Source: Paracyclopina nana
Taxonomy: Eukaryota > Arthropoda > Copepoda > Cyclopoida > Cyclopettidae
Direction of reading: 5' to 3'
Length of the DNA: 64,000 nucleotides
Assembly: GCA_019096065.1 (NCBI GenBank)
Contig: JAGUCH010000003.1
Location: 9,114,001 to 9,178,000 of the forward strand
The notes under the pieces are model-generated. The model did no database searches and was not told the DNA's origin. It saw only the letters and a list, made by a program, of their open reading frames with translations. Positions 2,560 through 30,600 of the stretch are shown piece after piece. Numbering within the stretch: the first letter of the stretch is position 1; each line of letters opens with the position of its first letter. The translations under genes and the position numbers were made by a program.

Positions 2560-2561
2560 TA

Positions 2562-2757
2562 ATAGTTCCCTACCCCCTCAGCAAAAGTTAGACCCCAAGA
2601 AAAATCCCTGAGAGGTCGGGAAAAATTTGAGAACCGAGCAACTATTTTTCATCCGAGCGCAGCGAGGAAATGAAAAATGTGCAAGGTTCTCAAATTTTTC
2701 CCGGCCGATCAGGGATTTTTCGCGGGGTCTAACTTTTGCTGAGGGTGGTAGGGATTC
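2562..2757. mobile_element. Foldback MITE-like element (long inverted repeats)
   Basis: An arm of about 66 bp at 2568-2635 is the near-exact reverse complement of 2685-2753. The ~50-bp loop holds a smaller dyad (TTTTTCAT against ATGAAAAA). The ends read TTCCCTACC and GGTAGGGA. It sits between the satellite junction at 2559 and the left end of the TIR element at 2764, so it is either nested in that element or inserted beside it. It has no coding capacity; a 75-codon minus-strand frame across it is a by-product of the inverted repeat. Confidence 0.75.
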
Positions 2758-2875
2758 ATTTTTCTCTAACAGTAACCGAAAATCCCAGGTTTGTTGAAAT
2801 TCCAAGATAAGCTCGACCTACTATTTCGATCCATCATACTTTGATCCCAGTAGCGACTAGAGAATCTCAGCTGAG

Positions 2876-3320
2876 CAGGGTGACCAGATGTGGCTATTTA
2901 TAGCCAAAGTGGCTATTTTTGACCCGTGTGTGGCTACGGAAATTTAGGCCGAATAGCCATAGCCATTTGTGGCTATTTTTGAAAAGCCCGAAAATTTGAT
3001 ATTTTTACTTAATAAATGCTTGAAAATCATCGAAAAAGCAGGGGGAAAAATTAAATTTGCAAAAACGGCTGACTTTAAAAAAAAATCTTTTGCCACCAAA
3101 ACTTGAAGAAAATGATCATTTAATCCTTGCTTTCATCACAGCAATCCCAAAAATTGGATCAAATTTTCATAATAAATATTAGTCATTGTGAAAATTCCTA
3201 AAAATGTGGCTATTTTTCGCCAATTTGTGGCTTTTTTGAGTCATTTTTCTTAGATAGCCAAATGTGGCTATTTTGGGGGAAAATCTGGCTACAACCCGAT
3301 CAAATTTTCTGGTCACCCTG
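2876..3320. mobile_element. hAT-type MITE with 8-bp target duplication
   Basis: It is bounded by perfect 13-bp terminal inverted repeats, CAGGGTGACCAGA at the left and TCTGGTCACCCTG at the right. An exact 8-bp direct repeat, CAGCTGAG, flanks it at 2868-2875 and 3321-3328. Eight-base duplications and CAGNG-type ends are the hallmark of hAT transposons. The 445-bp body is AT-rich, carries several subterminal copies of GTGGCTATTT, and has no coding capacity. It is nested in the TIR element; removing it and one repeat restores the CTCAGCTGAGTCAC seen in the other copy at about 22352. Confidence 0.92.
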
Positions 3321-3426
3321 CAGCTGAGTCACTGACAACAAATTGACGCCATTATTGATTACGCTGCAAGTCTTACAAAACTTTAGCTGCAAATTGAGGC
3401 TGTTCAAGACCAAGATGGTAATTTGA

Positions 3427-3990
3427 GGCTCCCGCACCCGGCAGCGTCTCCCGCACCCGGCATTGTCTCCTGCACCCAACAGAGTTTCCCGCCCCCTAGG
3501 AGCGTCTCCCGCACCCGGCAGCGTCTCCCCCACCCGGCAGCGTCTCCCCCACCTGGCAGCGTCTCTCACACTCGGCAGCGTCTCCACACCCGGCAGCATC
3601 TCCCGCATCCGGCAACGTCTCCCGCACCCGGCAGCGTCTCCCGCACCCGGCAGCGTCTCCCGCACCCGGCAGCGTCTCCCGCACCCGGCAGCGTCTCCCG
3701 CACCCGGCAGCGTCTCCCGCACCCGGCAGCGTCTCCCGCACCCGGCAGCGTCTCCTGCACCCAACAGAGTTTCCCGCCCCCTAGAAGCTTCTCTCGCACC
3801 CAGCAGCGTCTCCCCCACCCGGCAGCGTCTCCCGCGCCCGGCAGCGTCTCCCCCACCCGGCAGCATCTCCCGCACCCGGCAGCGTCTCCCCCACCCGGCA
3901 GCATCTCCCGCAACCGGCAACGTCTCCCCCACCCAGCAGCTTCTCCCGCACCCGGCAGCGTCTCCTGCACCCAGCAGCGTCTCCCGCACA
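3427..3990. repeat. 19-bp GC-rich minisatellite (about 30 units)
   Basis: The unit CCCGCACCCGGCAGCGTCT repeats about 30 times with variants (for example the longer CCCAACAGAGTTTCCCGCC types). Because 19 is not a multiple of three, each strand and frame cycles through the same 57-bp super-period. That produces long open frames (up to 261 codons on the minus strand and 220 on the plus strand) of proline/serine/arginine- or glycine/arginine-rich repeats. These are artefacts of composition: there are no splice signals, no homology and no codon bias. The GC content contrasts sharply with the AT-rich satellite around it. Confidence 0.93.
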
Positions 3991-4198
3991 TTGTGGCTGC
4001 TCATTACTGAATTGTGTGGGAAAAAAATTCGCCTGGTGATTTTTTTTCCCGGGAAAAAAATTCCCCTAGTTAATTTTTTTCCCAATGTGTTTGTTTACAT
4101 TTCGTTTTTCACTATTATATGCTAGTCTTGGTTGAGAAATAAACTGAGAACTATTTGGAAATTGAAACCTAACCAGGGATTTTCGGTTACCGGTAGAG

Positions 4199-7100
4199 AA
4201 AATAGGTTTCTAGCCTTAGATTTTCAGCATTTCAGTGGAAAATTCCACTTTTGTTGGCCAATCACAAAGCAGGAATAAGGAAAATAGGCTTCTAGCCTCA
4301 GATTCTCAGCATTTCAGTGGAAAATTCCACTTTTGTTGGCCAATCAAGCAGGAATCAAGAAAATATGTTTCTAGCCTCAGATTCTCAGCATTTCAGTGGA
4401 AAATTCCACTTTTGTTGGCCAATCTTAAAGCAGGAATCAAGAAAATAGGTTTCTAGCCTTAGATTCTCAGCATTTCAGTGGAAAATTCCACTTTTGTTGG
4501 CCAATCACAAAGCAGGAATAAGGAAAATAGGCTTCTAGCCTCAGATTCTCAGCATTTCATTGGAAAATTCCACTTTTGTTGGCCAATCACAAGGCAGGAA
4601 TAAAGAAAACAGGGTTTCAGCCTCAGATTCTTAGCATTTCTTTGGAAAATTCCACTTTTGTTGGCCAATCACAAAGCAGGAATCAAGAAATTAGGTTTCT
4701 AGCCTCAGATTCTCAGCATTTCTCTGGAAAATTCCACTTTTGTTGGCCAATCACAAAGCAGGAATCAAGAAATTAGGTTTCTAGCCTTAGATTCTCAGCA
4801 TTTCAGTGGAAAATTCCACTTTTGTTGGCCAATCACAAAGCAGGAATCAAGAAAATAGGTTTCTAGCCTCAGATTCTCAGCATTTCATTGGAAAATTCCA
4901 CTTTTGTTGGCCAATCACAAAGGAGGAATCAAGAAAATAGGTTTCTAGCCTTAGATTCTCAGCATTTCTCTGGAAAATTCCACTTTTGTTGGCCAATCAC
5001 AAAGCAGGAATCAAGAAAATAGGTTTCTAGCCTCAGATTCTCAGCATTTCAGTGGAAAATTCCACTTTTGTTGGCCAATCACAAAGCAGGAATCAAGAAA
5101 ATAGGTTTCTAGCCTTAGATTCTCAGCATTTCAGTGGAAAATTCCACTTTTGTTGGCCAATCACAAAGCAGGAATCAAGAAAATAGGTTTCTAGCCTCAG
5201 ATTCTCAGCATTTCAGTGGAAAATTCCACTTTTGTTGGCCAATCACAAAGCAGGAATCAAGAAAATAGGTTTCTAGCCTCAGATTCTCAGCATTTCAGTG
5301 GAAAATTCCACTTTTGTTGGCCAATCACAAAGCAGGAATCAAGAAAATAGGTTTCTAGCCTTAGATTCTCAGCATTTCTCTGGAAAATTCCACTTTTGTT
5401 GGCCAATCACAAAGCAGGAATCAAGAAAATAGGTTTCTAGCCTCAGATTCTCAGCATTTCTCTGGAAAATTCCACTTTTAATGGCCAATCACAAAGGAGG
5501 AATCAAGAAAATAGGTTTCTAGCCTTAGATTCTCAGCATTTCTCTGGAAAATTCCACTTTTGTTGGCCAATCACAAAGCAGGAATCTAGAAAATAGGTTT
5601 CTAGCCTCAGATTCTCAGCATTTCAGTGGAAAATTCCACTTTTGTTGGCCAATCACAAAGGAGGAATCAAGAAAATAGGTTTCTAGCCTTAGATTCTCAG
5701 CATTTCAGTGGAAAATTCCACTTTTGTTGGCCAATCACAAAGCAGGAATCAAGAAAATAGGTTTCTAGCCTCAGATTCTCAGCATTTCTCTGGAAAATTC
5801 CACTTTTGTTGGCCAATCACAAAGGAGGAATCAAGAAAATAGGTTTCTAGCCTTAGATTCTCAGCATTTCAGTGGAAAATTCCACTTTTGTTGGCCAATC
5901 ACAAAGCAGGAATCAAGAAAATAGGTTTCTAGCCTCAGATTCTCAGCATTTCTCTGGAAAATTCCACTTTTGTTGGCCAATCACAAAGGAGGAATCAAGA
6001 AAATAGGTTTCTAGCCTTAGATTCTCAGCATTTCAGTGGAAAATTCCACTTTTGTTGGCCAATCACAAAGCAGGAATCAAGAAAATAGGTTTCTAGCCTC
6101 AGATTCTCAGCATTTCTCTGGAAAATTCCACTTTTGTTGGCCAATCACAAGGCAGGACTAAAGAAAACAGGGTTTCAGCCTCAGATTCTCAGCATTTCTC
6201 TGGAAAATTCCACTTTTGTTGGCCAATCACAAAGCAGGAATCAAGAAAATAGGTTTCTAGCCTTAGTTTCTCAGCATTTCTCTGGAAAATTCCACTTTTG
6301 TTGGCCAATCACAAAGGAGGAATCAAGAAAATAGGTTTCTAGCCTTAGATTCTCAGCATTTCAGTGGAAAATTCCACTTTTGTTGGCCAATCACAAAGCA
6401 GGAATCAAGAAAATAGGTTTCTAGCCTCAGATTCTCAGCATTTCTCTGGAAAATTCCACTTTTGTTGGCCAATCACAAGGCAGGAATAAAGAAAACAGGG
6501 TTTCAGCCTTAGATTCTCAGCATTTCAGTGGAAAATTCCACTTTTGTTGGCCAATCACAAAGCAGGAATCAAGAAAATAGGTTTCTAGCCTCAGATTCTC
6601 AGCATTTCAGTGGAAAATTCCACTTTTGTTGGCCAATCACAAAGCAGGAATCAAGAAAATAGGTTTCTAGCCTTTGATTCTCAGCATTTCAGTGGAAAAT
6701 TCCACTTTTGTTGGCCAATCACAAAGCAGGAATCAAGAAAATAGGTTTCTAGCCTCAGATTCTCAGCATTTCTCTGGAAAATTCCACTTTTGTTGGCCAA
6801 TCACAAAGCAGGAATCAAGAAAATAGGTTTCTAGCCTTAGATTCTCAGCATTTTAGTGGAAAATTCCACTTTTGTTGGCCAATCACAAAGCAGGAATCAA
6901 GAAAATAGGTTTCTAGCCTCAGATTCTCAGCATTTCTCTGGAAAATTCCACTTTTGTTGGCCAATCACAAGGCAGGAATAAAGAAAACAGGGTTTCAGCC
7001 TCAGATTCTCAGCATTTCAGTGGAAAATTCCACTTTTGTTGGCCAATCACAAAGCAGGAATCAAGAAAATAAGTTTCTAGCCTTAGATTCTCAGCATTTC

Positions 7101-10100
7101 AGTGGAAAATTCCACTTTTGTTGGCCAATCACAAAGCAGGAATCAAGAAAATAGGTTTCTAGCCTCAGATTCTCAGCATTTCTCTGGAAAATTCCACTTT
7201 TGTTGGCCAATCACAAGGCAGGAATAAAGAAAACAGGGTTTCAGCCTCAGATTCTCAGCATTTCAGTGGAAAATTCCACTTTTGTTGGCCAATCACAAAG
7301 CAGGAATCAAGAAAATAGGTTTCTAGCCTCAGATTCTCAGCATTTCAGTGGAAAATTCCACTTTTGTTGGCCAATCACAAAGCAGGAATCAAGAAAATAG
7401 GTTTCTAGCCTTTGATTCTCAGCATTTCAGTGGAAAATTCCACTTTTGTTGGCCAATCACAAAGCAGGAATCAAGAAAATAAGTTTCTAGCCTTAGATTC
7501 TCAGCATTTCAGTGGAAAATTCCACTTTTGTTGGCCAATCACAAAGCAGGAATCAAGAAAATAGGTTTCTAGCCTCAGATTCTCAGCATTTCAGTGGAAA
7601 ATTCCACTTTTGTTGGCCAATCACAAGGCAGGAATAAAGAAAACAGGGTTTCAGCCTCAGATTCTCAGCATTTCTCTGGAAAATTCCACTTTTGTTGGCC
7701 AATCACAAAGGAGGAATCAAGAAAATAGGCTTCTAGCCTCAGATTCTCAGCATTTCAGTGGAAAATTCCACTTTTGTTGGCCAATCATAAAGCAGGAATC
7801 AAGAAAAAAGTTTCTAGCCTTAGATTCTCAGCATTTCAGTGGAAAATTCCACTTTTGTTGGCCAATCAAGCAGGAATCAAGAAAATAGGTTTCTAGCCTC
7901 AGATTCTCAGCATTTCTCTGGAAAATTCCACTTTTGTTGGCCAATCACAAGGCAGTAATAGAGAAAACAGGGTTTCAGCCTCAGATTCTCAGCATTTCTC
8001 TGGAAAATTCCACTTTTGTTGGCCAATCACAAGGCAGGAATAAAGCAAACAGGGTTTCAGCCTCAGATTCTCAGCATTTCAGTGGAAAATTCCACTTTTG
8101 TTGGCCAATCACAAAGCAGGAATCAAGAAAATAGGTTTCTAGCCTCAGATTCTCAGCATTTCTCTGGAAAATTCCACTTTTGTTGGCCAATCACAAAGCA
8201 GGAATCAAGAAAATAGGTTTCTAGCCTCAGATTCTCAGCATTTCTCTGGAAAATTCCACTTTTGTTGGCCAATCACAAGGCAGAAATAAGGAAAATAGGC
8301 TTCTAGCCTCAGATTCTCAGCATTTCAGTGGAAAATTCCACTTTTGTTGGCCAATCACAAACCAGGATTCAAGAAAATAAGTTTCTAGCCTTAGATTCTC
8401 AGCATTTCAGTGGATAATTCCACTTTTGTTGGCCAATCAGTATTTCATTGGAAAATTCCACTTTTGTTGGCCAATCACAAAGGAGGAATCAAGAAAATAG
8501 GTTTCTAGCCTTAGATTCTCAGCATTTCTCTGGAAAATTCCACTTTTGTTGGCCAATCACAAAGCAGGAATCAAGAAAATAGGTTTCTAGCCTCAGATTC
8601 TCAGCATTTCAGTGGAAAATTCCACTTTTGTTGGCTAATCACAAAGCAGGAATCAAGAAAATAGGTTTCTAGCCTCAGATTCTCAGCATTTCACTGGAAA
8701 ATTCCACTTTTGTTGGCCAATCACAAAGCAGGAATCAAGAAAATAGGTTTCTAGCCTCAGATTCTCAGCATTTCAGTGGAAAATTCCACTTTTGTTGGCC
8801 AATCACAAAGCAGGAATAAGAAAAATAGGTTTCTAGCCTTAGATTCTCAGCATTTCTCTGGAAAATTCCACTTTTGTTGGCCAATCAGAAAGCAGGAATC
8901 AAGAAAAGGTTTCTAGCCTCAGATTCTCAGCATTTCAGTGGAAAATTCCACTTTTGTTGGCCAATCACAAACCAGGAATCAAGAAAATAGGTTTCTAGCC
9001 TCAGATTCTCAGCATTTCTCTGGAAAATTCCACTTTTGTTGGCCAATCACAAGGCAGGAATAAAGAAAACAGGGTTTCAGCCTCAGATTCTCAGCATTTC
9101 AGTGGAAAATTCCACTTTTGTTGGCCAATCACAAAGCAGGAATCAAGAAAATAGGTTTCTAGCCTCAGATTCTCAGCATTTCTCTGGAAAATTCCACTTT
9201 TGTTGGCCAATCACAAGGCAGGAATAAAGAAAACAGGGTTTCAGCCTCAGATTCTCAGCATTTCAGTGGAAAATTCCACTTTTGTTGGCCAATCACAAAG
9301 CAGGAATCAAGAAAAATGGTTTCTAGCCTCAGATTCTCAGCATTTCTCTGGAAAATTCCACTTTTGTTGGCCAATCACAAAGCAGGAATCAAGAAAATAG
9401 GCTTCTAGCCTCAGATTCTCAGCATTTCTCTGGAAAATTCCACTTTTGTTGGCCAATCACAAGGCAGGAATAAAGAAAACAGGGTTTCAGCCTCAGATTC
9501 TCAGCATTTCAGTGGAAAATTCCACTTTTGTTGGCCAATCACAAAGCAGGAATCAAGAAAATAGGTTTCTAGCCTCAGATTCTCAGCATTTCAGTGGAAA
9601 ATTCCACTTTTGTTGGCCAATCACAAAGCAGGAATCAAGAAAATAGGTTTCTAGCCTCAGATTCTCAGCATTTCAGTGGAAAATTCCACTTTTGTTGGCC
9701 AATCACAAAGCAGGAATCAAGAAAATAGGTTTCTAGCCTCAGATTCTCAGCATTTCAGTGGAAAATTCCACTTATGTTGGCTAATCACAAAGCAGGAATC
9801 AAGAAAATAGGTTTCTAGCCTCAGATTCTCAGCATTTCAGTGGAAAATTCCACTTTTGTTGGCCAATCACAAAGCAGGAATCAAGAAAATAGGTTTCTAG
9901 CCTCAGATTCTCAGCATTTCAGTGGAAAATTCCACTTTTGTTGGCCAATCAGAAAGCAGGAATCAAGAAAAGGTTTCTAGCCTCAGATTCTCAGCATTTC
10001 AGTGGAAAATTCCACTTTTGTTGGCCAATCACAAACCAGGAATCAAGAAAATAGGTTTCTAGCCTCAGATTCTCAGCATTTCTCTGGAAAATTCCACTTT

Positions 10101-10920
10101 TGTTGGCCAATCACAAGGCAGGAATAAAGAAAACAGGGTTTCAGCCTCAGATTCTCAGCATTTCAGTGGAAAATTCCACTTTTGTTGGCCAATCACAAAG
10201 CAGGAATCAAGAAAATAGGTTTCTAGCCTCAGATTCTCAGCATTTCAGTGGAAAATTCCACTTTTGTTGGCCAATCACAAAGCAGGAATCAAGAAAATAG
10301 GTTTCTAGCCTTTGATTCTCAGCATTTCAGTGGAAAATTCCACTTTTGTTGGCCAATCACAAAGCAGGAATAAGAAAAATAGGTTTCTAGCCTCAGATTC
10401 TCAGTATTTCTTTGGAAAATTCCACTTTTGTTGGCCAATCACAAAGCAGGAATAAGAAAAATAGGTTTCTCGCCTCAAATTCTCAGCATTTCAGTGGAAA
10501 ATTCCACTTATGTTGGCTAATCACAAAGCAGGAATCAAGAAAATAGGTTTCTAGCCTCAGATTCTCAGCATTTCACTGGAAAATTCCACTTTTGTTGGCC
10601 AATCACAAAGCAGGAATCAAGAAAATAGGTTTGTAGCCTCAGATTCTCAGCATTTCAGTGGAAAATTCCACTTTTGTTGGCCAATCACAAAGCAGGAATA
10701 AGAAAAATAGGTTTCTAGCCTTAGATTCTCAGCATTTCTCTGGAAAATTCCACTTTTGTTGGCCAATCAGAAAGCAGGAATCAAGAAAAGGTTTCTAGCC
10801 TCAGATTCTCAGCATTTCAGTGGAAAATTCTACTTTTGTTGGCCAATCACAAACCAGGATTCAAGAAAATAAGTTTCTAGCCTTAGATTCTCAGCATTTC
10901 AGTGGATAATTCCACTTTTG
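4199..10920. repeat. 82-bp satellite array, main block (about 82 monomers)
   Basis: This is the same monomer as the left block. The first ~560 bp repeat, variant for variant, the stretch near 595-1150, including the rare monomers with the shortened CCAATCAAGCAGG and the ATATGTTTCT changes. Towards the right end, segments such as 8345-8475 and 10850-10920 are also near copies of each other. Indel-bearing monomers (for example those lacking AT in GAAAATAGG near 8900, 9960 and 10780) recur in blocks, showing that multi-monomer segments were duplicated. No gene is visible. Confidence 0.97.
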
Positions 10921-12000: not shown

Positions 12001-12104
12001 CTTTTGTTGGCCAATCAGTATTTCATTGGAAAATTCCACTTTTGTTGGCCAATCTCAAATCAAGAATAAGGAAAATAGGTTTCTAGCCTCAGATTCTCAG
12101 CATT
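12001..12104. repeat. Terminal remnant of the 82-bp satellite
   Basis: About 1.3 monomers continue after the inserted element (GTTGGCCAATCAGTATTTC and onward), with the same ATTTCATTGG variant as the copy at 8430-8460. The similarity stops after CTCAGCATTTTA near 12104. This is the right-hand boundary of the main array; the 47 bp before the CACTA end at 12152 are not satellite. Confidence 0.85.
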
Positions 12105-12151
12105 TTACAAGTGTAAAATCTTGCACATTAATCAATAAATTGTGTTTCTGT

Positions 12152-12168
12152 CCCCACTACGCAAATTT
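12152..12168 (+). repeat. Left terminal inverted repeat of the CACTA element
   Basis: CCCCACTACGCAAATTT matches the reverse complement of 20215-20231 base for base. CACTA begins at 12155. Outside lies TTTCTGT, with no convincing direct repeat of the right flank. Confidence 0.88.
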
Positions 12169-12546
12169 GCCGCCTTATGTTTAATAATCCAGCAAAAATC
12201 TCGCGAGAATTTTTTGGCTTTATCTTAATTTTTATTGGGGCATATCCTGCCAAAACACTTCTTGTACACGCAGCCTACTAGTCAAGAATTTTCATGCTTT
12301 ACTTAGTTTATCTTGCAAGATAAATTACTTGTAAATTCAGTAAATCACTTAGGTACACGAAGTTGTGCACTGAACAGTGTGGTAGCACTTAATGCGTAAA
12401 ATTGAGAAACAGGAAGTGTATTGACTGAAATAAACGCCTAAAATTTCAAGAAACATTAAGTGTTTCCCGGCTGTCCCCGGGCCCTGGGTAGGCCCAAATT
12501 AGGCCCCCTATGCTGAAATATGCCTTTGCTGATTGATTTTCATATT

Positions 12547-12552
12547 TTTATT
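12547..12552 (-). terminator. Poly(A) signal of the accessory gene
   Basis: AATAAA on the minus strand lies 85 bases beyond the predicted stop codon at 12637. Confidence 0.55.
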
Positions 12553-12636
12553 ATCATATTATATTGGTATATGTTAGTGTTGACTATGAATTTATGAGTC
12601 AAGAAATAAATGTGTCAACTAAAATGGCCATTTCAT

Positions 12637-15600
12637 CTACTTCTTTTCAGTCCTTGGAGTTACGGAACCAGAGGAAGAAGAGTCAGTGATGGGGAACCCA
12701 GACGGAATACTATCCCTGCACGACGATTCAAGAACCTAAAAATTAGATTGATGTTGTGAGAGGTTGACAATACTACAAGAAAGGATGTTTTGGACTCACG
12801 GGTGGATTGGGTTTCTTGGAGGTTGTGGGCTGAGGATCTTCGTAGTCAGACATGCAGTCATCCATCTGGAATAAATTGATCTTGTCAATTATTGTTAAGA
12901 GTATTGATAAGAAATCTCTCACCGTCTGTCCTCGTTGAACGCTGGATTCAACATCTTGAGTTGAAGGCTCTTCATTGTCTGATGACAACAGAACAGTTGG
13001 TGGCTCAATTTCATCCTCTTCATCTCGCATAGCCAACTCGTCTGCAACTTCCTGTCGAGATCTTTTTGCAACACTTCCAAATGGCATAGTTAGCCGTGGC
13101 TTGATTGGGGACTTCCTTTTTCTTGTAGGATTGTCAATTGGAACAACTACTTCTGGCATGTAGTCCAAGGCGTCAACTGAATACGTCTTAACAAGGCTGT
13201 TGATGTCAGTAATGCCTCTAACGACCTCCTTGTACAAAGCCGGGAGCTGAAAAGTTTAAAAACTCAAAAGTTTCTCGCAAGAAAGTTAGCCACAGTGGTT
13301 ACCTCTGGAATCATCTCATTAAAGTCAACTTGAAGGTTCCTGTAGTCAAGGCCCATGACATGGGCACTTGCGCAGATGATCCTTATGATCTCTTTGGGAT
13401 CCTCTGTCTCGTACACCATTTTTCTCTTGAGATCATCGAAGATTCGCTCGGGTGGTGGGATGTCCTTGTTGACATTTTCATCGTGTTTGGAGAATTCACC
13501 CCTGTCGGCAATCTTGGCATAGTGGCTTTCTCGAGAGATGACTTTAGACCTCTTTGTCTTGTTCTTGGGCAATGTATGCTTGTTTGCCTCGTAGAAGTCA
13601 AAGTCGCAATCAACAATTGCATTGCATGCATCCTCGTGCGTCCTGGTATTCTCTAGTGCACAGTTGATGAAGGCCGTCCTATCCACATTAAACATAACAG
13701 CGCACGGGTCACGCATCTCAGAGATATGACTAAGGTCAGCACCCGGTGCAACTGACAAGATCTCTTGAATCTTCAACATCAAATTTTTCTTCACCATTGT
13801 GAACAAGCCCTCAGGCAACGGCCTTTTATAGAAGGTCTGCATTTTCGTCGAGCTGAAAAGATGCTCGTTAAAGGAGATGATCGAAAATTTGCATTTCTTA
13901 CTTACTTTTTGCCATCGCCATAGATTAGATGTGCCCTTGCCAACGGGGTGAAAAAAGTTGTCAGCAATGTCTTGGCAAGCACGGTGTTCATGCCAATGAG
14001 CTGCATCTTATTCAGGTACGGCCCCAACAAGTCTGAGCATTGCTCCTTAAAAGAAGACATTAAGAATTAGTAAGATGAAGGTTACCAATGAACCACCCAA
14101 CGTACTTGGACGAAAGGAAAAGAAAAGTAAATGTCGCAAGGTTTGCCCATTTTGTTGAAGGGTGTAGGCCGGAACAAGATTGACCGAGCTTTGGACTTCA
14201 TCTCGATATTTCCTCGCATTGTTTTGATTGGACTCGCAGCAAAAGCCTTGCCTGTCATTGAAATGGTCCTACTCGAGATATCGTCCACCACTTTTTTCAT
14301 GGCCTAAAATTGTATCATTAGTGCAACTTTTGAAATGTTATGCCACAACAATACTTACATTAATTTTCGCAAATTTGTTGTCCACTTTCTTCAGAACAGA
14401 GGCCATCTCGAGTGATCGTTGATCCTCCAAGTTTCGGACCTCCTCCTTGAGTATATCATGAAATCTCACGAAGAACTCATTGAGCTTCATGTCGAGGTAA
14501 GCACGAGTAACCAGCGACTCACTTGGAGTTACATTCATCATCACGCTGCCCAAGACCTCGGAGCCTTCATAGTTGCCTAATTCCTAAAAAAAAGAAAAAT
14601 AAGAATGTGAATGTCAAGTAGCTGGTAAAAAAAATTACCACGGCATGCCCACGTGAAGTTGACGGCAATTCTTCATCATGCACAGAGTCCTCGTACTCAG
14701 CTGTGCCAACTACTCTTGACATTCTCTCCTCCATCTCGGCTAAAGAAACAGACGCAGTCGCTGAATTGCCTGTTGCAATTTCTGCAGCAGCTTCTGCCGC
14801 TTCCATGGCCTCGGCTTCTCGAAGAGCCTCAGCAGCAGCAGCAATGGCTTCGGCTTCTTCTTGTGCAGCTGCTTCTTTTGCAACTTTTGCCTCTTCTTTT
14901 TCCTTTTCACGTCTTAACCTGTCAATTTCATCAGCCTTAGCTTTTTCCAGTCTTGCCTCTTCCTCTTGCCTTTCCATTTCTCTAGCTTCCTCTTGCCTCA
15001 TCCTTTCTACTTCTTCCATTCTCTTTGCCTCCTCAGCTATTCTTGAGGCTTCTTCCGCTGCTCTTAGGGCCTCTCTAGCTTTTTCTGCTAATTCCTCAGC
15101 CTTAGCAGCTTGAGCAGCCCTTGCTGCAATTGCTACCTCTACGTTGGCTTTTTCTGCTGACTTTTTAGCCAAATTATCTGTAGCCGTTTTTGATATTTGT
15201 GCAGCCTTTGACACCCTCGCAGAAAAAGATTCATCGGCATTGGGATCGTCAATGAAACCACGGTTGCCCTCATCAACGCTTTCTTGGCTTGATGTCTCCA
15301 ATTCCTCCGAAGGAGAGCGTTCATTTTGAGGGACAGCGCTTGATCGTGTCTGCATCCGACGACCAGACGAAGATGGCATCGGCATAGGATTTCTTGGCTC
15401 CTTCTGAGCAACCCTTGTTCTTGGCTCCTTCTGGGCAACCTTAGGCCTCAAATTGGCAATCCCAGGTCCTCGGTCGGGTCCAGATTCAGAAGCTGACTCA
15501 TCAGTGATGACGGATTGGATGTTGAATCCTTTCTTGACTTCTTCTCTTGTCAATCGTTTTGTCCACGGCCTCATTGGAAAAGTCAGAGTTGTTTCATCTC

Positions 15601-16053
15601 GCCTCGGATAGTCGAAGTCTTTCATGACCTTCTCGTAATACATGTAGACCATGTTCTCATAATAATTGAGCCGGTCACCCTTGACGGTATGCTCGTTGAT
15701 TTCGAAGTTGAGATCTTCGATTAACATGTTCAACCGGAATTGGAGTAGCCCTATGAATTAGTCAATAGTGTAAAGTAATTGTAAGATATGTTATAAAAAT
15801 GAGTACCTTTCTCCACTCTAGCAAAAGCTCGGATGACTTTGTCCTCATTATCCATGAGGACAGGATTGGCAATTTTCCGGTTAATGTCCAAGAGCCGCAA
15901 GGAGACATCGATGTCAAAGACATCTTTAATCGTCTTTCCATCTTGAGAGAGATAGTCCATCGGAAGGAACGAGAAGACTTGATCCTCGGCGTCCAGGTCG
16001 GCTATGATCAGGCGATCATACTCTCCGTGCTTTTTTTTATCACTTTGAGACAT
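12637..16053 (-). CDS. CACTA accessory protein, 986 aa, nine exons, unknown family
   Basis: The exon model is 16053-15807, 15750-14639, 14583-14359, 14303-14106, 14045-13906, 13852-13303, 13246-12923, 12865-12800 and 12735-12637. All junctions are GT-AG and phase-compatible, giving 987 codons with the stop. Residues ~1-130 form a conserved-looking globular region. Residues ~255-425 are a highly charged Ala/Glu/Lys/Arg coiled coil. Residues ~480-820 are globular with several Cys and no motif I recognise. At ~908 there is a hydrophobic-acidic patch, TVLLSSDNEE, like a SUMO-interaction motif. It lies divergently next to the transposase inside one pair of TIRs, so it is probably the element's second protein (DNA-binding or assembly role, inferred). 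If the last donor is skipped, translation ends at 12773 instead. I found no frameshift or stop. Confidence 0.8.
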
Positions 16054-16491
16054 AATTTTCGAATTTTTTTCTTGAAAAAGAGCGTTACGGCCAATTTTCT
16101 TTCACCTATTGTCGTTTGGCGAGAAATAAACAAATAATTTCACGCGGCAGGATTAATTTTCAACGGTTTTTCTGACTTAATGTTTCTCTCGTGTTTGTTG
16201 CATAAACAATCACAGCTACATTAAGTGACCTCCTCATGAGCAACTGCAAAATAGGAAGTGGCAGCTGTTGTGTTTCCTGTTCAGCTAACGGCTCAGAAAG
16301 CGACATTCTTTAAAACATTTCGTAATAATCGTATTCTTGCCAAATTCAACATTTTTTGGTCATCCAACTTTCGCCTCCGCAATATACGAATTGCTGGGCT
16401 TGACGTAAGTATTACTGGCATACAAAACATCTGACATCTCAGTTCAATTTGCCTTTTTTTGTCATGTTAGAAAACTGACGACGAAGAAGAA
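16054..16491. promoter_or_regulatory. Shared divergent promoter region of the two CACTA genes
   Basis: The two start codons face away from each other across about 440 bp. The plus side contains a likely 5'-UTR intron: donor GTAAGT near 16405 and acceptor TTAG ending near 16470, just before the ATG at 16492. Short repeats of the type AACAGGAAGTG and ACATTAAGTG occur near 12404-12462 and 16220-16260, in both the subterminal and central regions, and could be binding sites for an element-encoded protein. That last point is inference. Confidence 0.6.
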
Positions 16492-19400
16492 ATGCCTCCA
16501 ATAAGGCGTGACAAGAGGAGGGAACATCAGGAAGCAGGCGCTACTGGAAATAAGGCGAAATGGCGAAGCCGGGAGCGACGACGAGCTCAGCGTATGCTGT
16601 CCAAGTTAGGTCAAGATCTTCGAGAGATCAAAGATAATGTTCGCCAGGACGCAATCACTTTGGATAGGATTGCTCACCGCAATGAAACTACGTAAGTGAA
16701 GCGATTTGAACTCGTTATTTGCTACATGGCACAATTACATATCTTTGTCTTTAGTGGTAATGCTCGAGATCAACAAAATCCGATTGACGACCTCTTTCGC
16801 CAAGAAACTGCAATACATGATGTTGAAGCCAGGATTGACCGTGTCGTCTCAGTTCACCTTGCGGATGATGATGACACTTCTTCTCTTGCTTCATCTACGG
16901 ATCATTTGTCAAGATCAATGAGTACTCAGTCTGTTTCATCTGGAAGAAGGTCTGTGTCCACAGATTCCAGTATGCCCCCACTCGAGGCATCTCCACCAAG
17001 AGTCGCTCGTGCTTTGCCTTTGAGGGATGTCGACCATCTTGTCAATAACTTGACACCTGTAGGCCTTTCTAGGCCTCTGAGAATCAACGATGACTCTCCT
17101 GAATTTGCTGTCACTCCGGCACCTGCTGCCACGCCACCACCCATCATTGATTTGAGTAGTGACTACACAATTCCTTCATTCGAAGAAACTTTCTCAAGTC
17201 AGTTGTCAGATACTTCCTCTTCCATTCATCCTCTTGGCGAGACTAACAGGTTCAATCCGGATATCAATGTGGAAATTGAGTTGACAAAATTGAAGATAAC
17301 TGACGATGACGCCCCAGAAAGTAGCGATCATGACTCGCTAGTAGATGATGACGAATGGATGAACGACTGGATGTTGTCATCAGATGACGAGAACGAGGAT
17401 GCGGCAAATGACCAAGCCGGAACGTCAAATGCCCAAGTAGCAGGAACTTCAAATGGCCAAGTTTCAAATGATGCAAACGCCAAGGAGGATGCTCGACCAA
17501 TGGCTGACGTTTTCTCTCAAGAAAGTGTTATGGGAGATGACTTGTCCCAGCTAGGGGCTGCTGCTTTGCCCAATCCTGATGAGCCCGATGATCCGTATTT
17601 TCCAGCAAAGGAGGATGACAATGACTTTTATGGGGCCAACTACAGGTTGACTCAAGCATCTGTTCGACGCCATGTCAAGAAAGAAGAGCAAATGGGAACT
17701 TTGCGCTACAAGAACAAGAGTCTGTTTGACTTGTTTTCAAGCGTCATTCAACAACGAGGCATTGGCGCCAGCGCTGAAAGTGACTTGTGGGAAATCTTTC
17801 GAGGTTATCTACCACAACGTAAGCTGCAAGGATTAAGGTCCACAAAGAAGCGATTCTTGGACAAGCAGCCAAATGTTGTGATGTTCTACGAGTTCCTTAA
17901 CTTAGAAACGCGAGAAGTTGTCAAAGTAGAGTCTTCAGTCTATCCTAAGGGCCAATTTCCACGAGATAAATGGTCCAAAATTTCCGAATATGCTAAGACA
18001 ACAATCTCGGATATTTGGAATCACTCTACCGCTGTTCACAACACGGATTTCAGAGGAGCAATTTATCAGCAATACGTTGGTCTTGACATTTTTATGGATG
18101 GATTGCCATGCAGCAAAAGCGGAGCTGACCAGCTGAACATGGTTCTTGTGAGAATTTCACCATGCAGGACCAAGTACGTCTATGCAATGCATCTCTATCG
18201 CAAGGAGTCCTCTTGGAATCCATTGAAAATCCTCCAAGAAGTTATTGATGAAATCAAGGATTCATCTCTCAAGATCCGACAAGTTATTGGTGATGGCCCG
18301 ATCCGAGCCAAATTGAAATGCTTGAAGCAATGGAATGGATCCTACTCGTGTGAGTTTTGCTTTGCAAAGGGATTCAGAATTGGAAATAGAACTGTCTTTC
18401 CAAGTGACACGTTCAAATCCCGGCGACGATCTCGATATTGGTGGCATGACATGGCATCTGCTATCGCTAGTCAAGGAATTGACAACTTCACCCAAGAACA
18501 ACTCCTTGGTCTAACAGGAGCGTCACCATTGGCACTGCTTCCCGAATTTGACATGACATCTCAATTCACTTTGGAACCGATGCACAACTTTGGTGGATGT
18601 GTGAAGCAAATCATTCGCCTAATGATTGGTCTGTCATCATCAAGTCAAAAACAATTCAGCGCAGCCCAGCTGACTTTGATCCGAGCATTCGATGCTCGCT
18701 GGGTCAAAATAAAGTTGCCTCGCGAATTCAACAGGGATCCACGATCAATGGAATCTTGCATTAAGTTCTACAAGACGCAAGAATACCTGTCAATTGCCAT
18801 TGGTGGGTTCTTGGCATTTGCGGATGCTTTCTACGGACAAGCCTACTATGCTGATCATTACCGTGTGTGGCTCACCTTCTGCTATGTCCTTCGCACTGTT
18901 CTTTTCGATAACCAGCTCTTCCAAGAAATAGTCGATAGGTCCAAATTGGACAAGATTGTTGGCTACCTGTACACTCTTTTTGAGACGACCTTTGGAGTGA
19001 TGAACTGTACGTAGAACATTCATAACTTCATGACCCATGTTCTTGAAGTTAGAGCCAAGTCTCGTATGCCTGCACTTAGCGCTTTATCTTTTGAGGGACA
19101 CCTCGGAAAAGTCAAGAGATGCATGAAGCCAAATACGCCAAGTATGCCGAAGCAGGTCATGAACAATCTCTTCCTTGGAAACAGGCAAAACCATGACTGT
19201 GACAATATGGTCCGATTGACATGCAGCGAATACCAAAGAACTGCAGACAACTTGATCTACACCAACACTCGAGAGTTCTACAAGATCATCACCACCCAAG
19301 ACACAACTTACACTTGCAAACGGTATTTCACGAAGACTTTTGCAACTCCGGAATGCAGTAACCTCAATTGGCGTTTGGTGGGAGTTGCTCGTTGGTTCTC

Positions 19401-19506
19401 CTTAGAAGATGCCCAAGTTGTTGTCGAGAAGAAAGATGTTGTCGGTAAAGCAATTCTTGACAAACACATCATCATCGCAATTCCACTGGATTCTTTTTTC
19501 ACTTAA
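16492..19506 (+). pseudogene. tnp2-like CACTA transposase, two exons, one internal amber codon
   Basis: Exon 1 is 16492-16691 (donor GTAAGT) and exon 2 is 16755-19506, giving 983 codons plus stop. The first ~320 residues are acidic and Ser-rich, with an IIDLSSD patch at ~197-203. The catalytic part follows: Asp515 in MDGLPCSKSG and Asp580 in VIGDGP fit the DDE family pattern of FxxDGLPxxKSS and CDAPAR. A Cys-x2-Cys (SCEFC) follows, then EFDMTSQFTLEPMHNF and a C-terminal FHLGKxKR-type block (FEGHLGKVKRC). At 19012-19014 (residue 820) the frame reads TAG between MNCT and NIHNFMTH; relatives have a Tyr-Asn-x-His here, so one base change explains it. The frame continues openly on both sides. Without readthrough the protein loses its last 164 residues, so I call it a very young pseudogene or a readthrough gene. 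Confidence 0.85.
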
Positions 19507-19688
19507 TATGTTCTAAGTTAACTCGTAAGAGACACATATAGGACCTTAGCCTTGTGCACGATGCTTTCTAAAGAAGCTGCACCTAAGGTCAATATTGGCA
19601 GTTGATTTTGCATGCCAATTGTAGTGTTCTCTGAGTTTTTGCTAATATTTCATGTATGTCGTAATAACATTAAAACAGGAAAGTTTCC

Positions 19689-19694
19689 AATAAA
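19689..19694 (+). terminator. Poly(A) signal of the transposase gene
   Basis: AATAAA lies 183 bases past the transposase stop codon. The region from here to the right TIR is non-coding subterminal DNA. Confidence 0.6.
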
Positions 19695-20214
19695 GCAAAG
19701 TGCACATGTCAATTATCTACTGCTCTTTCTTTCGGTCGCAAACATTCATGAACTACTCTTGCACTTGTTTAAAGTTGAAAAGATGCATTAGACATGAATA
19801 ACTTTAAAAATAATGCCTTTATTGATGAATGTCACAAATCGCTTACCTTTCTAATGCCAAAAAGGGAAGATTTCAAAGCAACAAATTAGTTATTAGTGCA
19901 AACGCTACTTTTTCAATGAAAAGAAAACTGACTTAGTAACTATCACTATATATGCCAAGAAATAAGTACAGATTTTACACCTAAATAAATTATGTACGAG
20001 ATGTAGCACATATAAACCACTAGATTTGGACAAAAAATCTTAATGTCACCTTGAAATATATTGTATTGGAGATGTAAGAAGTGGGTGGCTTGACTTCTAA
20101 AAAAAAAAAGATTTCTTGCGAGAACTAGTATAAGTACAAGTACTACATCTCGGTAACCATCAAATGGGCCGAGATGTAAGAAGTGCCACGCGAGATACAC
20201 TTACAGCCTATAAA

Positions 20215-20231
20215 AAATTTGCGTAGTGGGG
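20215..20231 (-). repeat. Right terminal inverted repeat of the CACTA element
   Basis: AAATTTGCGTAGTGGGG is the complement of the left terminus. Just inside it, GATGTAAGAAGTG occurs twice (about 20072 and 20174), facing the ACACTTCTT motif near the left end. Confidence 0.88.
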
Positions 20232-20308
20232 GTTGGAAAGGTTTATATTTAATTTGCAATAAAAACTGGACACAATCTGCTTACTTTTTCTATCATTGAA
20301 ATAATACT

Positions 20309-23946: not shown

Positions 23947-25367
23947 AACAAATTTTTCACATTCCACAGCCTCTTTGGCACCAATGGAGTTGAGCTGGAC
24001 CAAAAAAGTCAAGTTCAATCCGCGATTTGCTGTGCGCGAGCCCATTTTCATCCGCGAGTAGTAGCATATAGTATAATAGTGGCTGTCACTCCATAAAACT
24101 TTGCCCAGTCCAGAATCATGAAAAATGGAGAACACCCGAAATTTTTCACATTCCACAGCCTCTTTGGCACCAATGGAGTTGAGCTGGACCAAAAAATTCG
24201 CATTCCACCCGCGATTTGTCGAGCGCGAGCCTTTTTCATCCGTGAGTAGCAGTTGTTATTATAAGAGCTCTGGCTATCACATGAAAGTTTTGCGCATCCA
24301 GAACCATGAAAGGAGCGCAACACCTGACAGTTTGCACCTTCTAAATTCTCTTTGGCACCCACTGAGTTGAGCTGGGGCAAAAAATTCGCATTTTATCGCG
24401 GATTTTTTGAGCGAGAGCCCACTTCTTCGGCATTTATACTATTATTTTGGCCCTCTATATAAATGGCTGAAGAAAAAAGTTTAGCACATGTAAAATCGCG
24501 ATAGGTGCATAACACCTGAAATTTTACACCTTCTAAATTCTCTTTGGCACCCACTGAGGTGATCCAGGCCAAAAAAGTCGAGTTCCATCCGTGAATTTTT
24601 GAGCGCAAGGCGTTTTCCGTTTGCGAGTAGCAGTTGCTACTATAGGAGCAGCAGTGCCAGGAAAGTTTTGCGAAGCCAGAACCATGAAAGGAGCACAACA
24701 CCTGACAGTTTGCACCTTCTAAATTCTCTTTGGCACCCACTGAGTTGAGCTGGGGCAAAAAATTCGCATTTTATCGCGGACTTTTTGAGCGAGAGCCGAC
24801 TTCTTCGGCATATATATATTGTGGCCCTATAAATATGGCTGAAGAAAAAAGTTTAGCATATGTAAAATCGTGATAGGTGCATAACACCTGAAATTTTACA
24901 CCTTCTAAATTCTCTTTGGCACCAATGGAGTTGAGCTGGACAAAAAAATTCGCATTCGACCCGCGATTTGCTGTTCGCGAGCCCATTTTCATCCGCGAGT
25001 AGCAGCACTTAGCATAATAGTGGCTGTCACTCCATAAAACTTTGCCCAGTCCAGAATCATGAAATATGGAGAACACCCGAAATTTTTCACATTCCACAGC
25101 CTCTTTGGCACCAATGGAGTTGAGCTGGACCAAAAAAGTCAAGTTCAATCCGCGATTTGTCGAGCGCGAGCCCATTTTCATCCGCGAGTAGCAGCATATA
25201 GTATAATAGTGGCCATCACTCCATAAAACTTTGCCCAGTCCAGAATCATGAAAAATGGAGAACACCCGAAATTTTTCACATTCCACAGCCTCTTTGGCAC
25301 CAATGGAGTTGAGCTGGACCAAAAAAGTCAAGTTCAATCCGCGATTTGTCGAGCGCGAGCCTTTTTC
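23947..25367. repeat. Tandem array of ~187-190-bp units at the palindrome centre
   Basis: TTTTTCACATTCC at about 23953 recurs 189 bp later at about 24142, and related units start near 24331, 24519, 24706, 24893, 25082 and 25268. The arms contain further units. Since 189 is 63 codons, the minus strand shows long frames (127, 110, 121 and 188 codons) repeating a 63-residue unit with QLNSIGAKEAVE at its core. I see no start context, splice sites or known domain that would make this a real gene. Confidence 0.88.
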
Positions 25368-26582
25368 ATCCGTGAGTAGCAGTTGTTATTATAAGAGCTC
25401 TGGCTGTCACAGTAAAGTTTTGCATATCCAGATTCATGAAAGGTGCACAACACCAGAATGTTTACACCTTCCACAGCCTCCTTGGCACCAACTGAGCTGA
25501 GCTGGAGCAAAAAAGTGACTTGCCATCGCTCGTCTTGGCTGCAATCAAAGGAGCTCTTTATTGAAGCCATTTTCGACTTTTGTTCCCATGAAGCTTTGGC
25601 ACTCCTGGTTGAAGAAAGGAGCATAACACCATGAAAAATAGACTGTCTTTCATCTCCTTGCTTCCATTTGAGTTGATTCAGCCTAAAAAATCCACTCTCC
25701 AGCCTTGGTCTTGGCTGTGATCCATGCTGCCTTTCATTGAACCATTGGCAGCTGAGTTGGCAAATAAGCTCTGGTAGCCCTGGAAGCAGTCAGCTGATGA
25801 TCACCATCAAAGTTGAACTTGAAATCATCTCATGGGATGCCAAAGGAGTGATACAGCTCAAAAAATCCTCACCTGATCAGAGAACTTGGCCCTCGAGGCC
25901 CTCGAAGACTTTCTGTAGCCAAATCACCAATGCCACAAGTGAACTCCGAGCCCCCTGGATCAAGCTGACCTTGCTGTACCTTGACTGTTAGCCTTGAAAT
26001 CATCTGTTGGGACCCTAAAGGAGTGATCAAGGCCAAATGGTCAACAATCTGTCCCCAGAATTGGCAGCAAGGCCCTTGGAATTGCCACTGAATCGAAATG
26101 GCCGTCGCGATGGCTCGGCTCCAAGGCTCCTGGCTGGGCCTGGCCTTGCCCTACCAAGGAAGTTGGACCTGATACCAACCACTGAGACCCTAGAGGTGTC
26201 CTCCAGACCAAATGGCCCACACTCCAGCCATCAACTTGGCCACTGTGACCAATCGAGAATTTTTGACAGAAGAAAAGTAGCCATTTTGTTACTACTGTGA
26301 AAAAGTGAATTTTGTCCAACTTTGAGAGCTCGTAGCGGACAAACGAGGAATAACACCCTCCCAAATTTTTTCTTGGTACTAATTTGGATCTTTATCTGCC
26401 ATTTGGAGCAAAAAAATCCAAAATCCATCCGTAGCCTTTGGAGATAATCGGCCTCAAAGTTGGGTCCGAAAATGCAAATTTTGGCTTTTTTTGGCCTTGC
26501 CGAGGACTTTTTCCAACTTTTTTCCCCTGACATCTGGACACCCCCCAGGGGCCTCAAGAATTGGGGCATAGTTGATTTTGGC

Positions 26583-27627: not shown

Positions 27628-30600
27628 TTACACAGAGGTTTCAGAATTGATTCTGAGAACAAACTTATTTGATTCGTGGTCAATGATTTCTTCTGAAATG
27701 TGAAAATGAGGTAGCTTTGTCACTTGGCACAACAGAGAGATATCACCCTGTCTCAACTGGAAGAGCGTCCCTGGTTGAATGTCTCTGTAGAGGAGCCTTT
27801 CAGAGACCAGCGACCACGAATGAACATCCCGGACTTCGCGCTCATTCTGGAAAATGAAACGGTGACATCAGGAATGGAGGAGCAAGTCATCAAATAAACG
27901 CATTCCTCACCTGAAGTACTGGCGTGGTAACTAGATACCTTTCGAGGAAGGCTCTTGGTGACAAATCGTAGGACAGGCAAGTGGACAAATGCTGCAGAAT
28001 GGCCTCGATTGAATGCCTCGGTTGCTGCCTCGTCACCCGGAGGTACTTTTGCAGGGGCCTCGACAGAGTGGGGAAAATGGCCTGAGCCGCCTCGTAGGAT
28101 TCCATGGGCGCTTTGTCTTTTGCTAAGAAATACGCGTACAGATGCAGGCACATGAGGAGAAGAAAAACCTTACTTGGCTGGTTGGTTTGCATCCTCTTGA
28201 TGTGAGTGAAGGCTTCCTCCGCCGCAGAGATCAGCCTCGCCTTTCTCTTCTTCAACTTACGCTCGTATTCGTATTCCTCGTAGAATCGCTCGTTGTGTGA
28301 CGAGCTGAATCCGCCCTTTTTGGAAGCATGGCTGACCACCGTGGAATTGCCGTCCTGTAAAATGGGTAATGCTACAGCTTTCTTGTCTCGCGAGGTAAAT
28401 CAGAATTCTCCCTACATTGGCATTGCCGTCAATGTCGTACACCTTGATGCCCTTCCTATTTCTGGCTCCTCCGCTCAGCTGCCGGTCAAGGTAGGGATTG
28501 TAGATGGGAAACTCGGTGTAGTACTTGTCCAAAACCCACGCAGCCGCTCTCTGCACCGACATTTGGCCAACGGCAAAGCCTTTGGATTCGCCATCCGGCG
28601 ACCGCAGGACCTTGATGTAGAACTGGGCATTCCTGTGGCGCAGCTCGATGAGCAGGAGCGCCAAATAGTGGATAAAAAGCAGGGCGTCGACCAAGTGTAT
28701 TGCAAACTGGACCAGTCCCACATATTCCACTCGCTCCGTCTCCTTGAGGATGTGGCTGGCGTAGAAGAGCCAGAAGCTGATGAGGAAGATGAGGATGAGG
28801 AGGCAGACGAAGGCCCGGTAGATGTGGATTCTGGGCAAGGTAGATCTGGTGCTTCGATAGAAAATGCCCCACGTCCCCACAACTAAAACGAATAGTTTGA
28901 AGGCTAGTGAGACGAGCATTCCGTCGCATTCCACTCCGCACTGGAGCTGGGAGGTGCGGAGCCCGAAGACGCCCAGTTTGGGAAGACCCGCCATCAGAAT
29001 CGGGCTGATGAGGGCGAGCATGGACAAAAAGCCGGCTGTAAGAGGCCCGATGTGTCTGCGCAGCCGAAACACCATGCCCCTTTCAGTCTCGAGACGCCAT
29101 TTGTCCATCTCGGGGGCAAAGCCGCCCGCGGGTCCGTTGCCCACGTAGCCGGACTGCCCGTTACCGTCCGGGTAGTCCATGTCGGAATTCACGGTGACGG
29201 CGGTCGTATTTTCACCCCAGTGTTCGTCCTGAAAAACATTAAACTAATGGATCTTCGGCTCATGATGCAAAACTGGAAATTCGTCTCGGTTTCGGCTACT
29301 CCTACCTATTTCTAATGGCAATTTGTTCAGCCGGTGATAAATTAAGCCGGAGCTCCTTGCAGTAGTGACCTCCAGAGCAAGTTCAATATCAAAAGATTTT
29401 GACGAAGATGACACACGTATACGTGGTTCCAACTTAATAAGGTTTTTTCACCCGAGGGCGGGGCGACAAATTGGCCCACAATAAATCAACAATTAAGTTA
29501 CCCACACGATTTGTAGTGACCTGCACTCGTTTAATGCTTGACATGCTTATTTTTTCTACGGAGCAAATTTTACTGTCAAAATATAGTCGCTGTCAAATTC
29601 AAAAAGTAACCTTGCATATTTGTCAGCTAGGGAAAAAAATCTAGGATCACTTTTCCTCCGCAATGCACCACTTATCACAGTTTGAAGTGAATCTCTATCT
29701 CACAAGTTGCAGTGCGCATGCTCCTGTTGGGAGGCCAAAAACGATGACGATGAGCAAAAAAGGTCGCCGTTAGAAATGCCAAAGTGAAATTCTAAAGAAG
29801 CTCCTTATCTGAAGCGCCTAAAAAGGGCAGAGGATCGCACGGGAGAATTTTAATGAAAAGTTTGCACCCTTATTAGCGCCACTGCAACTGGTGTGGTTTT
29901 TTTTGGTCAAATTGAAGAGCCGCAGATAAGACAATCTTCCAAACGAAAATAATGATGGCAGTTGCTCGAGCACAACCATCATTCACAACTACTTGAAGTC
30001 GAGTGGTTTTCCTGGGAGGAATGTTACGATGCAAGCTCCCAGAGGAGATCGAGCCTAGCTGATGACAAGCATTCGGTTTATGGCAGGAGACGTACTCAAA
30101 CAATGGCCCTCTCGAGTGCTTGGGCCGCCAGTTTGGGATTGTTTGTAAATGTTTTCACTTTGTCAATTGGGACTTTTATAGACTAGCAGCTTTTTAATTA
30201 GGCGGGCTAGCAGCAGCGCAGAAGCAAATGCCGAAGTTTCAGGGGAAAAATGCCAAGAATCTGTCAGCAGCTCTGCTTATCTTGACATAAACAAAGGAGT
30301 TAGCCCCCAGAAGCGCATCATTATGATGGGAAAGTGAGTTTGGCAGCAATTTATCACCATCAGTAGGAGCATCGGCCGAGGCGAAACAGGTTTGATTCAT
30401 CTCTCATTCCTACCGTATGCTAATGCCAATCGCGCGTCACAACTCAGTTGTGACATCATTTGGATGACAAATGTCCGAAAAGATGGCGTACCTGTGGCAG
30501 AATTTGAACTTCAATCACTTCTTGGTGCTCGTCCGAATCATCCTGGTTGGACATGTTGGTGTCTCCCGTCGTGTTTATGGCCCTGTTGCTCAGATGACCC

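Follow-up and report, generated by a model that had tools for sequence, protein, structure and literature searches.

The question raised by this locus is what kind of transposable element occupies it, and whether the two genes that it carries belong together. The locus lies in a 64,000-nucleotide stretch of the genome of the copepod Paracyclopina nana (contig JAGUCH010000003.1, positions 9,114,001 to 9,178,000), hereafter the window. A first-pass annotation, made from the letters alone, had described positions 12152-20231 as a nearly intact two-gene CACTA transposon. Our analysis suggests, with a probability of roughly 85%, that this is an autonomous-type cut-and-paste transposon of the CMCT group (EnSpm/CACTA-like) which has lost its own transposase through one stop codon, and that its second gene (gene 2) encodes an accessory protein. 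The main finding is the family to which the element belongs, rather than the window copy itself: we regard it as a divergent variant, with two genes, of the animal CACTA-like transposons.

The borders of the 8,080-bp element had been placed correctly. It ends in exact 17-bp terminal inverted repeats (TIRs) that are 100% complementary, and the GT that borders it on either side represents a 2-bp target duplication. The tip sequence is CCCCACTA; the TIRs do contain CACTA, as had been stated, but it begins three bases inward from the tip, and the conserved tip is CCCCAC. Two divergent genes lie inside this single unit, with start codons separated by 438 bp, presumably a shared promoter region. They had been reported as almost unbroken and of equal length (983 and 986 codons). 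The transposase, on the plus strand, indeed has 983 codons in the splice-site exon model (two coding exons), whereas gene 2, on the minus strand, has 962 codons in eight exons; all introns of the latter are GT-AG and it has no internal stop. The transposase is not open, as a single in-frame stop interrupts it at codon 820 of 983. Since this stop precedes the H pair and the catalytic E, the truncated product cannot complete the active site. The window copy should thus yield no working enzyme, and it could be mobile only if an intact relative provides one.

The catalytic half of the transposase was used to query the genome (92 Mb; nine contigs measure 6.3-17.8 Mb and a tenth 268 kb), and 90 of the 218 candidates were scored. 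Apart from the window copy, the scored places are 28-69% identical to the query. A nearly intact copy had been presented as a rarity among animals; the window copy is broken, yet no stop was found in the matched stretch at 87 of the 90 places (counting the window copy, whose stop lies just past the searched stretch), and 85 lie within open frames that are 600 codons or longer. Stops past the matched stretch were checked in 29 fetched relatives only, of which L017 and L035 are cut short there, the latter being a fragment. Four short copies of 1.5-2.0 kb are too small for both genes; their ends are exactly the same on contigs C7, C8, and C4, with one mismatch per end in the copy on C2. A tree of 29 transposase rows, out of 30 that were fetched, supports deep branches; it carries a long-branch warning, and nothing else here is built on it. 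Separately, three transposase matches of equal score lie on one strand at C2:2568797-2586727 with a spacing of 8.3 kb, gene 2 being detected for two of them, which is probably a tandem of whole elements.

Target duplications of 2 bp were found in each of the 12 elements whose two ends could be read (GT, AT, TA, GT, TG, CA, TC, TA, TA, TG, TT, and AT). Left ends were fetched for three near-identical pairs. In six of seven such pairs (98.5-99.9% identity) the match breaks off at the tip itself (three pairs) or extends by a single base common to both flanks (three pairs); in the seventh, L025/L026, it runs through the entire compared stretch without a boundary. Because their flanks differ, the pair members are separate insertions, and the loss of similarity at, or one base beyond, the tip indicates that the family has moved recently. 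Right ends were compared in 21 lineages, with one row per near-identical pair and with L017 (long G run) and L025 (no tip found) excluded. All 21 begin with CCC, the tip being CCCCAC in 20 and CCCAAC in one, and CACTA occurs within the first nine bases in five. Tips were located by matching ends or a pair boundary in eight lineages; the other 13 were picked by a G-run pattern and are therefore not independent counts, GTGGGG being present in 13 of 86 control kilobases drawn from other parts of the window. The first-pass annotation had proposed a search for copies with identical ends and duplications of 2-3 bp, and had asked whether relatives of the transposase might be bounded by other ends. 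Relatives were found to have ends of the same kind.

The nearest full relative, the C5 copy, is 8,124 bp long and has identical 17-bp ends. It shares 68% of residues with the window copy in the catalytic half of the transposase (69% in the genome search) and 66% in the core of gene 2. At four-fold sites the two copies agree at 50 of 153 positions in the transposase and at 13 of 35 in gene 2, about 0.26 being expected (from all third bases, one relative). Likewise, L013 and L014 keep 88% of residues with 53 of 180 four-fold sites alike; the synonymous-site estimate was saturated, and four-fold counts were used in its place. Since residues are kept while four-fold third bases are nearly random, we infer that the lineages are old and that both proteins have been maintained by selection, presumably through repeated movement of working copies. 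The same contrast would be seen in a domesticated pair of host genes that retains mere remnants of transposon ends. This is very improbable given tens of dispersed copies, the stop in the window copy, and near-identical pairs at new sites; we rejected it on the grounds that these are separate insertions, each with its own 2-bp duplications.

Two queries (66 and 75 matches) placed gene 2 at 111 sites after merging. It lies divergently, 1,981-4,229 bp upstream, at 72 of the 90 scored transposases, including all 40 of the best matches. Random placement gave a mean of 0.37 divergent partners and a maximum of 3 (1000 runs), and on the same strand gene 2 was found within 8 kb of none of the 90. The concern that the two genes might never occur together elsewhere is thereby removed. 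A further 39 of the 111 gene 2 sites have no scored transposase, which may be because 128 candidates were left unscored. The protein itself looks unlike any known family when compared with Pfam and solved-structure profiles. By analogy with plant systems, it is most likely a nuclear protein that binds subterminal DNA and aids transposition. A second interpretation would make gene 2 a passenger, captured or decaying, with no part in transposition, as might be expected of a protein without a recognizable domain. It would also suit the 18 transposases for which neither query detected gene 2, a point that weighs against an accessory role. All 18 rank 41st or lower in similarity to the query, and gene 2 may be dispensable in some members of the family or merely too divergent for detection. 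We consider the passenger interpretation unlikely, as it sits poorly with the divergent arrangement at most places and with a core that has kept its residues to the same degree, and over equally randomized four-fold sites, as the transposase.

An alignment of 23 transposases (the window copy and 22 relatives) was used for classification. The residues D, D, C(2)C, H(3-4)H, and E are invariant in 22 of 22 relatives, as is an MH pair, and 64-65 residues separate the two D; the stop of the window copy comes before its H pair and E. In the CMCT clade, the DDE triad has a C(2)C and an H(3-4)H pair placed between its second D and the E; duplications measure 2-5 bp, and tips are mostly 5'-CA..TG-3' (PMC12730594). 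The family shares the signature and falls within the duplication range; the CA..TG tips, which apply "in most cases" and are not strictly defining, were not found in any of the 21 lineages. Plant CACTA (En-Spm) elements resemble the family in having two genes between inverted repeats, namely a transposase and an ORF2 of unknown function or one that supports excision and transposition (PMC4158355). However, their tips are CACTA..TAGTG and their duplications 3 bp, as opposed to CCCCAC..GTGGGG and 2 bp. The occurrence of two open reading frames at 72 of 90 places matches the plant type, without implying homology between gene 2 and ORF2. Maize Spm forms, for the most part, a single transcription unit that is spliced into four products (PMC1636069), whereas the family has two divergent genes; the names tnpA and tnpD occur in the title of a reference.

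The transposase had been called tnp2-like. In the sense of Transposase_21 (PF02992) this was not supported, as none of the 23 aligned proteins matched at E<=1. A search of the genome with this model also returned nothing, but it shows little since the control genomes gave no match either. For three animal TRC elements, DeMarco and colleagues put forward a CCC core in 2006 and observed duplications of 2 bp, which are present in 7 of the 14 copies of SmTRC1 as well as in the elements from Tribolium and Aedes (PMC1636069). These elements agree with the family in CCC tips, 2-bp duplications, and a CACTA-related animal transposase, and the Aedes element (9.2 kb) is similar in size to the window element. 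SmTRC1, from Schistosoma, differs in that its transposase region corresponds to Transposase_21. It has several spliced transcripts, one of which carries a second open reading frame; a divergent second gene, as found in the family, is not described for TRC elements in the parts of PMC1636069 examined. The tunicate Ciona savignyi has a CACTA element, ENS1_Cis, which is likewise an animal element with 2-bp duplications (PMC6004678), but its tips are CAC..GTG, so that CCC tips are not general in animals. Literature searches for comparable two-gene elements in animals, and for elements from mites, gave no such description; they were mostly below full-text level and excluded Repbase.

From the agreement in CCC tips and 2-bp duplications, we assign the family to the CMCT group as a variant whose ends bring it near TRC, and not to plant-type CACTA. 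The original label of CACTA transposon is right in this broad sense, with two genes that belong together. Alternatively, the nearest kin of the family might be found not in EnSpm/CACTA but in some other branch of CMCT (Transib, Chapaev, Mirage, Plavaka, ESTA, or Lanisha). The C(2)C and H(3-4)H pairs occur in every one of these (PMC12730594), Transposase_21 is not recognized in the family, and its tips are not CA..TG, all of which speaks for such a placement, but we consider it rather unlikely: CCC tips with 2-bp duplications have been published for animal TRC elements, one of which does match Transposase_21 (PMC1636069).

In working relatives, a DDE transposase whose C(2)C and H(3-4)H pairs presumably bind zinc would cut at the CCCCAC tips and insert the element at a 2-bp staggered target. 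The tips, duplications, and signature were observed, and the cutting chemistry is presumed. The product of gene 2 would act in the nucleus, binding subterminal DNA and assisting transposition in the manner of plant ORF2/TnpA, and the window copy would move only with enzyme from an intact relative. Repeated subterminal motifs, which such binding might use, had been claimed for the window copy. This holds for the right end, where an exact 15-bp repeat occurs twice, 102 bp apart (at 20069 and 20171), a length reached in 0 of 1000 shuffles. It fails for the left end, with a longest exact repeat of 8 bp (reached in 498 of 1000 shuffles), and for counts of nine-base words with one mismatch, which stay within shuffles (reached in 173, 32, and 47 of 200 for the left end, the right end, and both). 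In both the window and C5 copies, one word is present twice with a spacing of 102 bp, its distances from the tip being 163/61 bp in the former and 165/63 bp in the latter; the word differs between the copies. The word GAGATCAAGTT occurs 39-40 bp from the tip in 7 of 21 lineages (mean 0.35 and maximum 3 in shuffles), but it is merely a lead, being picked post hoc among related lineages. Another word, ACATTAAGTG, is likewise only a lead: five of its six matches in the window fall in or at the edge of the genes and ends of the element, and 10 of 100 window shuffles reach six.

Several further points weigh against our reading of the element and its second gene. Exact right-end repeats exceed 60 shuffles in only 4 of 21 lineages (window, C5, L010, and L034), and 5 of 21 have no exact right-end repeat of at least nine bases; therefore, repeat binding is not a general rule. 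The exon models of both genes rest on splice sites, not on transcripts. No Pfam model reached the cut-off with the transposase, the gene 2 protein, or their scanned relatives. Among solved structures none matched below E 0.1, the transposase giving eight weak matches (best E 0.11) and gene 2 none. A single-sequence fold prediction of the window transposase had a mean pLDDT of 35.5, which is worthless, and it was not used. Matches below the Pfam cut-off in one or two members (DUF1258, Acetyltransf_9, DUF4806, and the rve integrase core at 0.11; E 0.013-0.45) were taken as noise. A genome search with DUF1258 returned nothing, nor did any control match. When the transposase alignment was compared with IMG/VR, nine pattern matches were obtained, with no relative among them.

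A bolder view, which we put forward tentatively and at less than even odds, is that the family represents a separate CMCT lineage missed by present domain models. In it, a large second protein of unknown fold would be a standing part of the machinery, reading subterminal DNA that keeps its position while changing its words. Many deeply divergent branches of the lineage would persist within a single small arthropod genome, and several of them would have two near-identical copies that moved recently. This view is weakened by the restriction of strong right-end repeats to the four lineages named above. Apart from it, the suggestion made in 2006 from three animal elements, namely CCC tips with 2-bp duplications, is extended here to many lineages of one genome. 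With its many two-gene branches and recently moved copies, the family offers a natural system for testing the role of the second protein of CACTA-like elements, and both of its genes are missed by annotation based on Pfam domains. Table 1 lists the features of the window copy.

Table 1. Features of the window copy and its target site (positions in the window)
Feature	Position	Strand	Remark
Target duplication GT, left copy	12150..12151		flank comparison
Left TIR, 17 bp, CCCCACTACGCAAATTT	12152..12168	+	100% complementary to right TIR
Gene 2 exon 8 and stop	12773..12865	-	GT-AG exon model
Gene 2 exon 7	12923..13246	-	basic, nuclear-localization-like stretch (by eye)
Gene 2 exon 6	13303..13852	-	conserved protein core
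Gene 2 exon 5	13906..14045	-	GT-AG exon model
Gene 2 exon 4	14106..14303	-	GT-AG exon model
Gene 2 exon 3	14359..14583	-	GT-AG exon model
Gene 2 exon 2	14639..15750	-	Ala/Glu/Lys-rich, probably coiled-coil (by eye)
Gene 2 exon 1 and ATG	15807..16053	-	GT-AG exon model
Stretch between both start codons, 438 bp; presumably shared promoter region	16054..16491		promoter function presumed
Transposase coding exon 1	16492..16691	+	GT-AG exon model
Transposase coding exon 2	16755..19506	+	contains D 18097-18099, D 18292-18294, C(2)C 18349-18360
In-frame stop TAG, codon 820	19012..19014	+	precedes H(4)H pair (19021-19038) and E (19093-19095)
Right subterminal 15-bp repeat, copy 1	20069..20083	+	
Right subterminal 15-bp repeat, copy 2	20171..20185	+	
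Right TIR, 17 bp	20215..20231	-	
Target duplication GT, right copy	20232..20233		flank comparison

Around the element, most of the first 10.9 kb of the window (1-10920) consists of a satellite whose unit is 82 bp long, and one further unit is found just left of the element at 12001-12119 (88.6% alike over 105 bases). No unit was found inside the element or within 2 kb on its right, which places the element at the edge of the satellite array. A 19-bp tandem array of 29.5 copies, CTCCCGCACCCGGCAGCGT, lies within the satellite at 3429-3989. On the other side, a tandem array of 8.3 copies of a 189-bp unit (23950-25516) overlaps an open frame of 204 codons. An Rfam scan of the window gave no match. 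In the genome as a whole, PF00379 (Chitin_bind_4), a domain typical of arthropod cuticle, was found at 80 places, and it matched 0 of 14 control genomes, which points to an arthropod host. Finally, the window contains a Vang-like gene at 28320-29243 on the minus strand, with E 1.5e-58 to solved chains of Vang-like protein 1.

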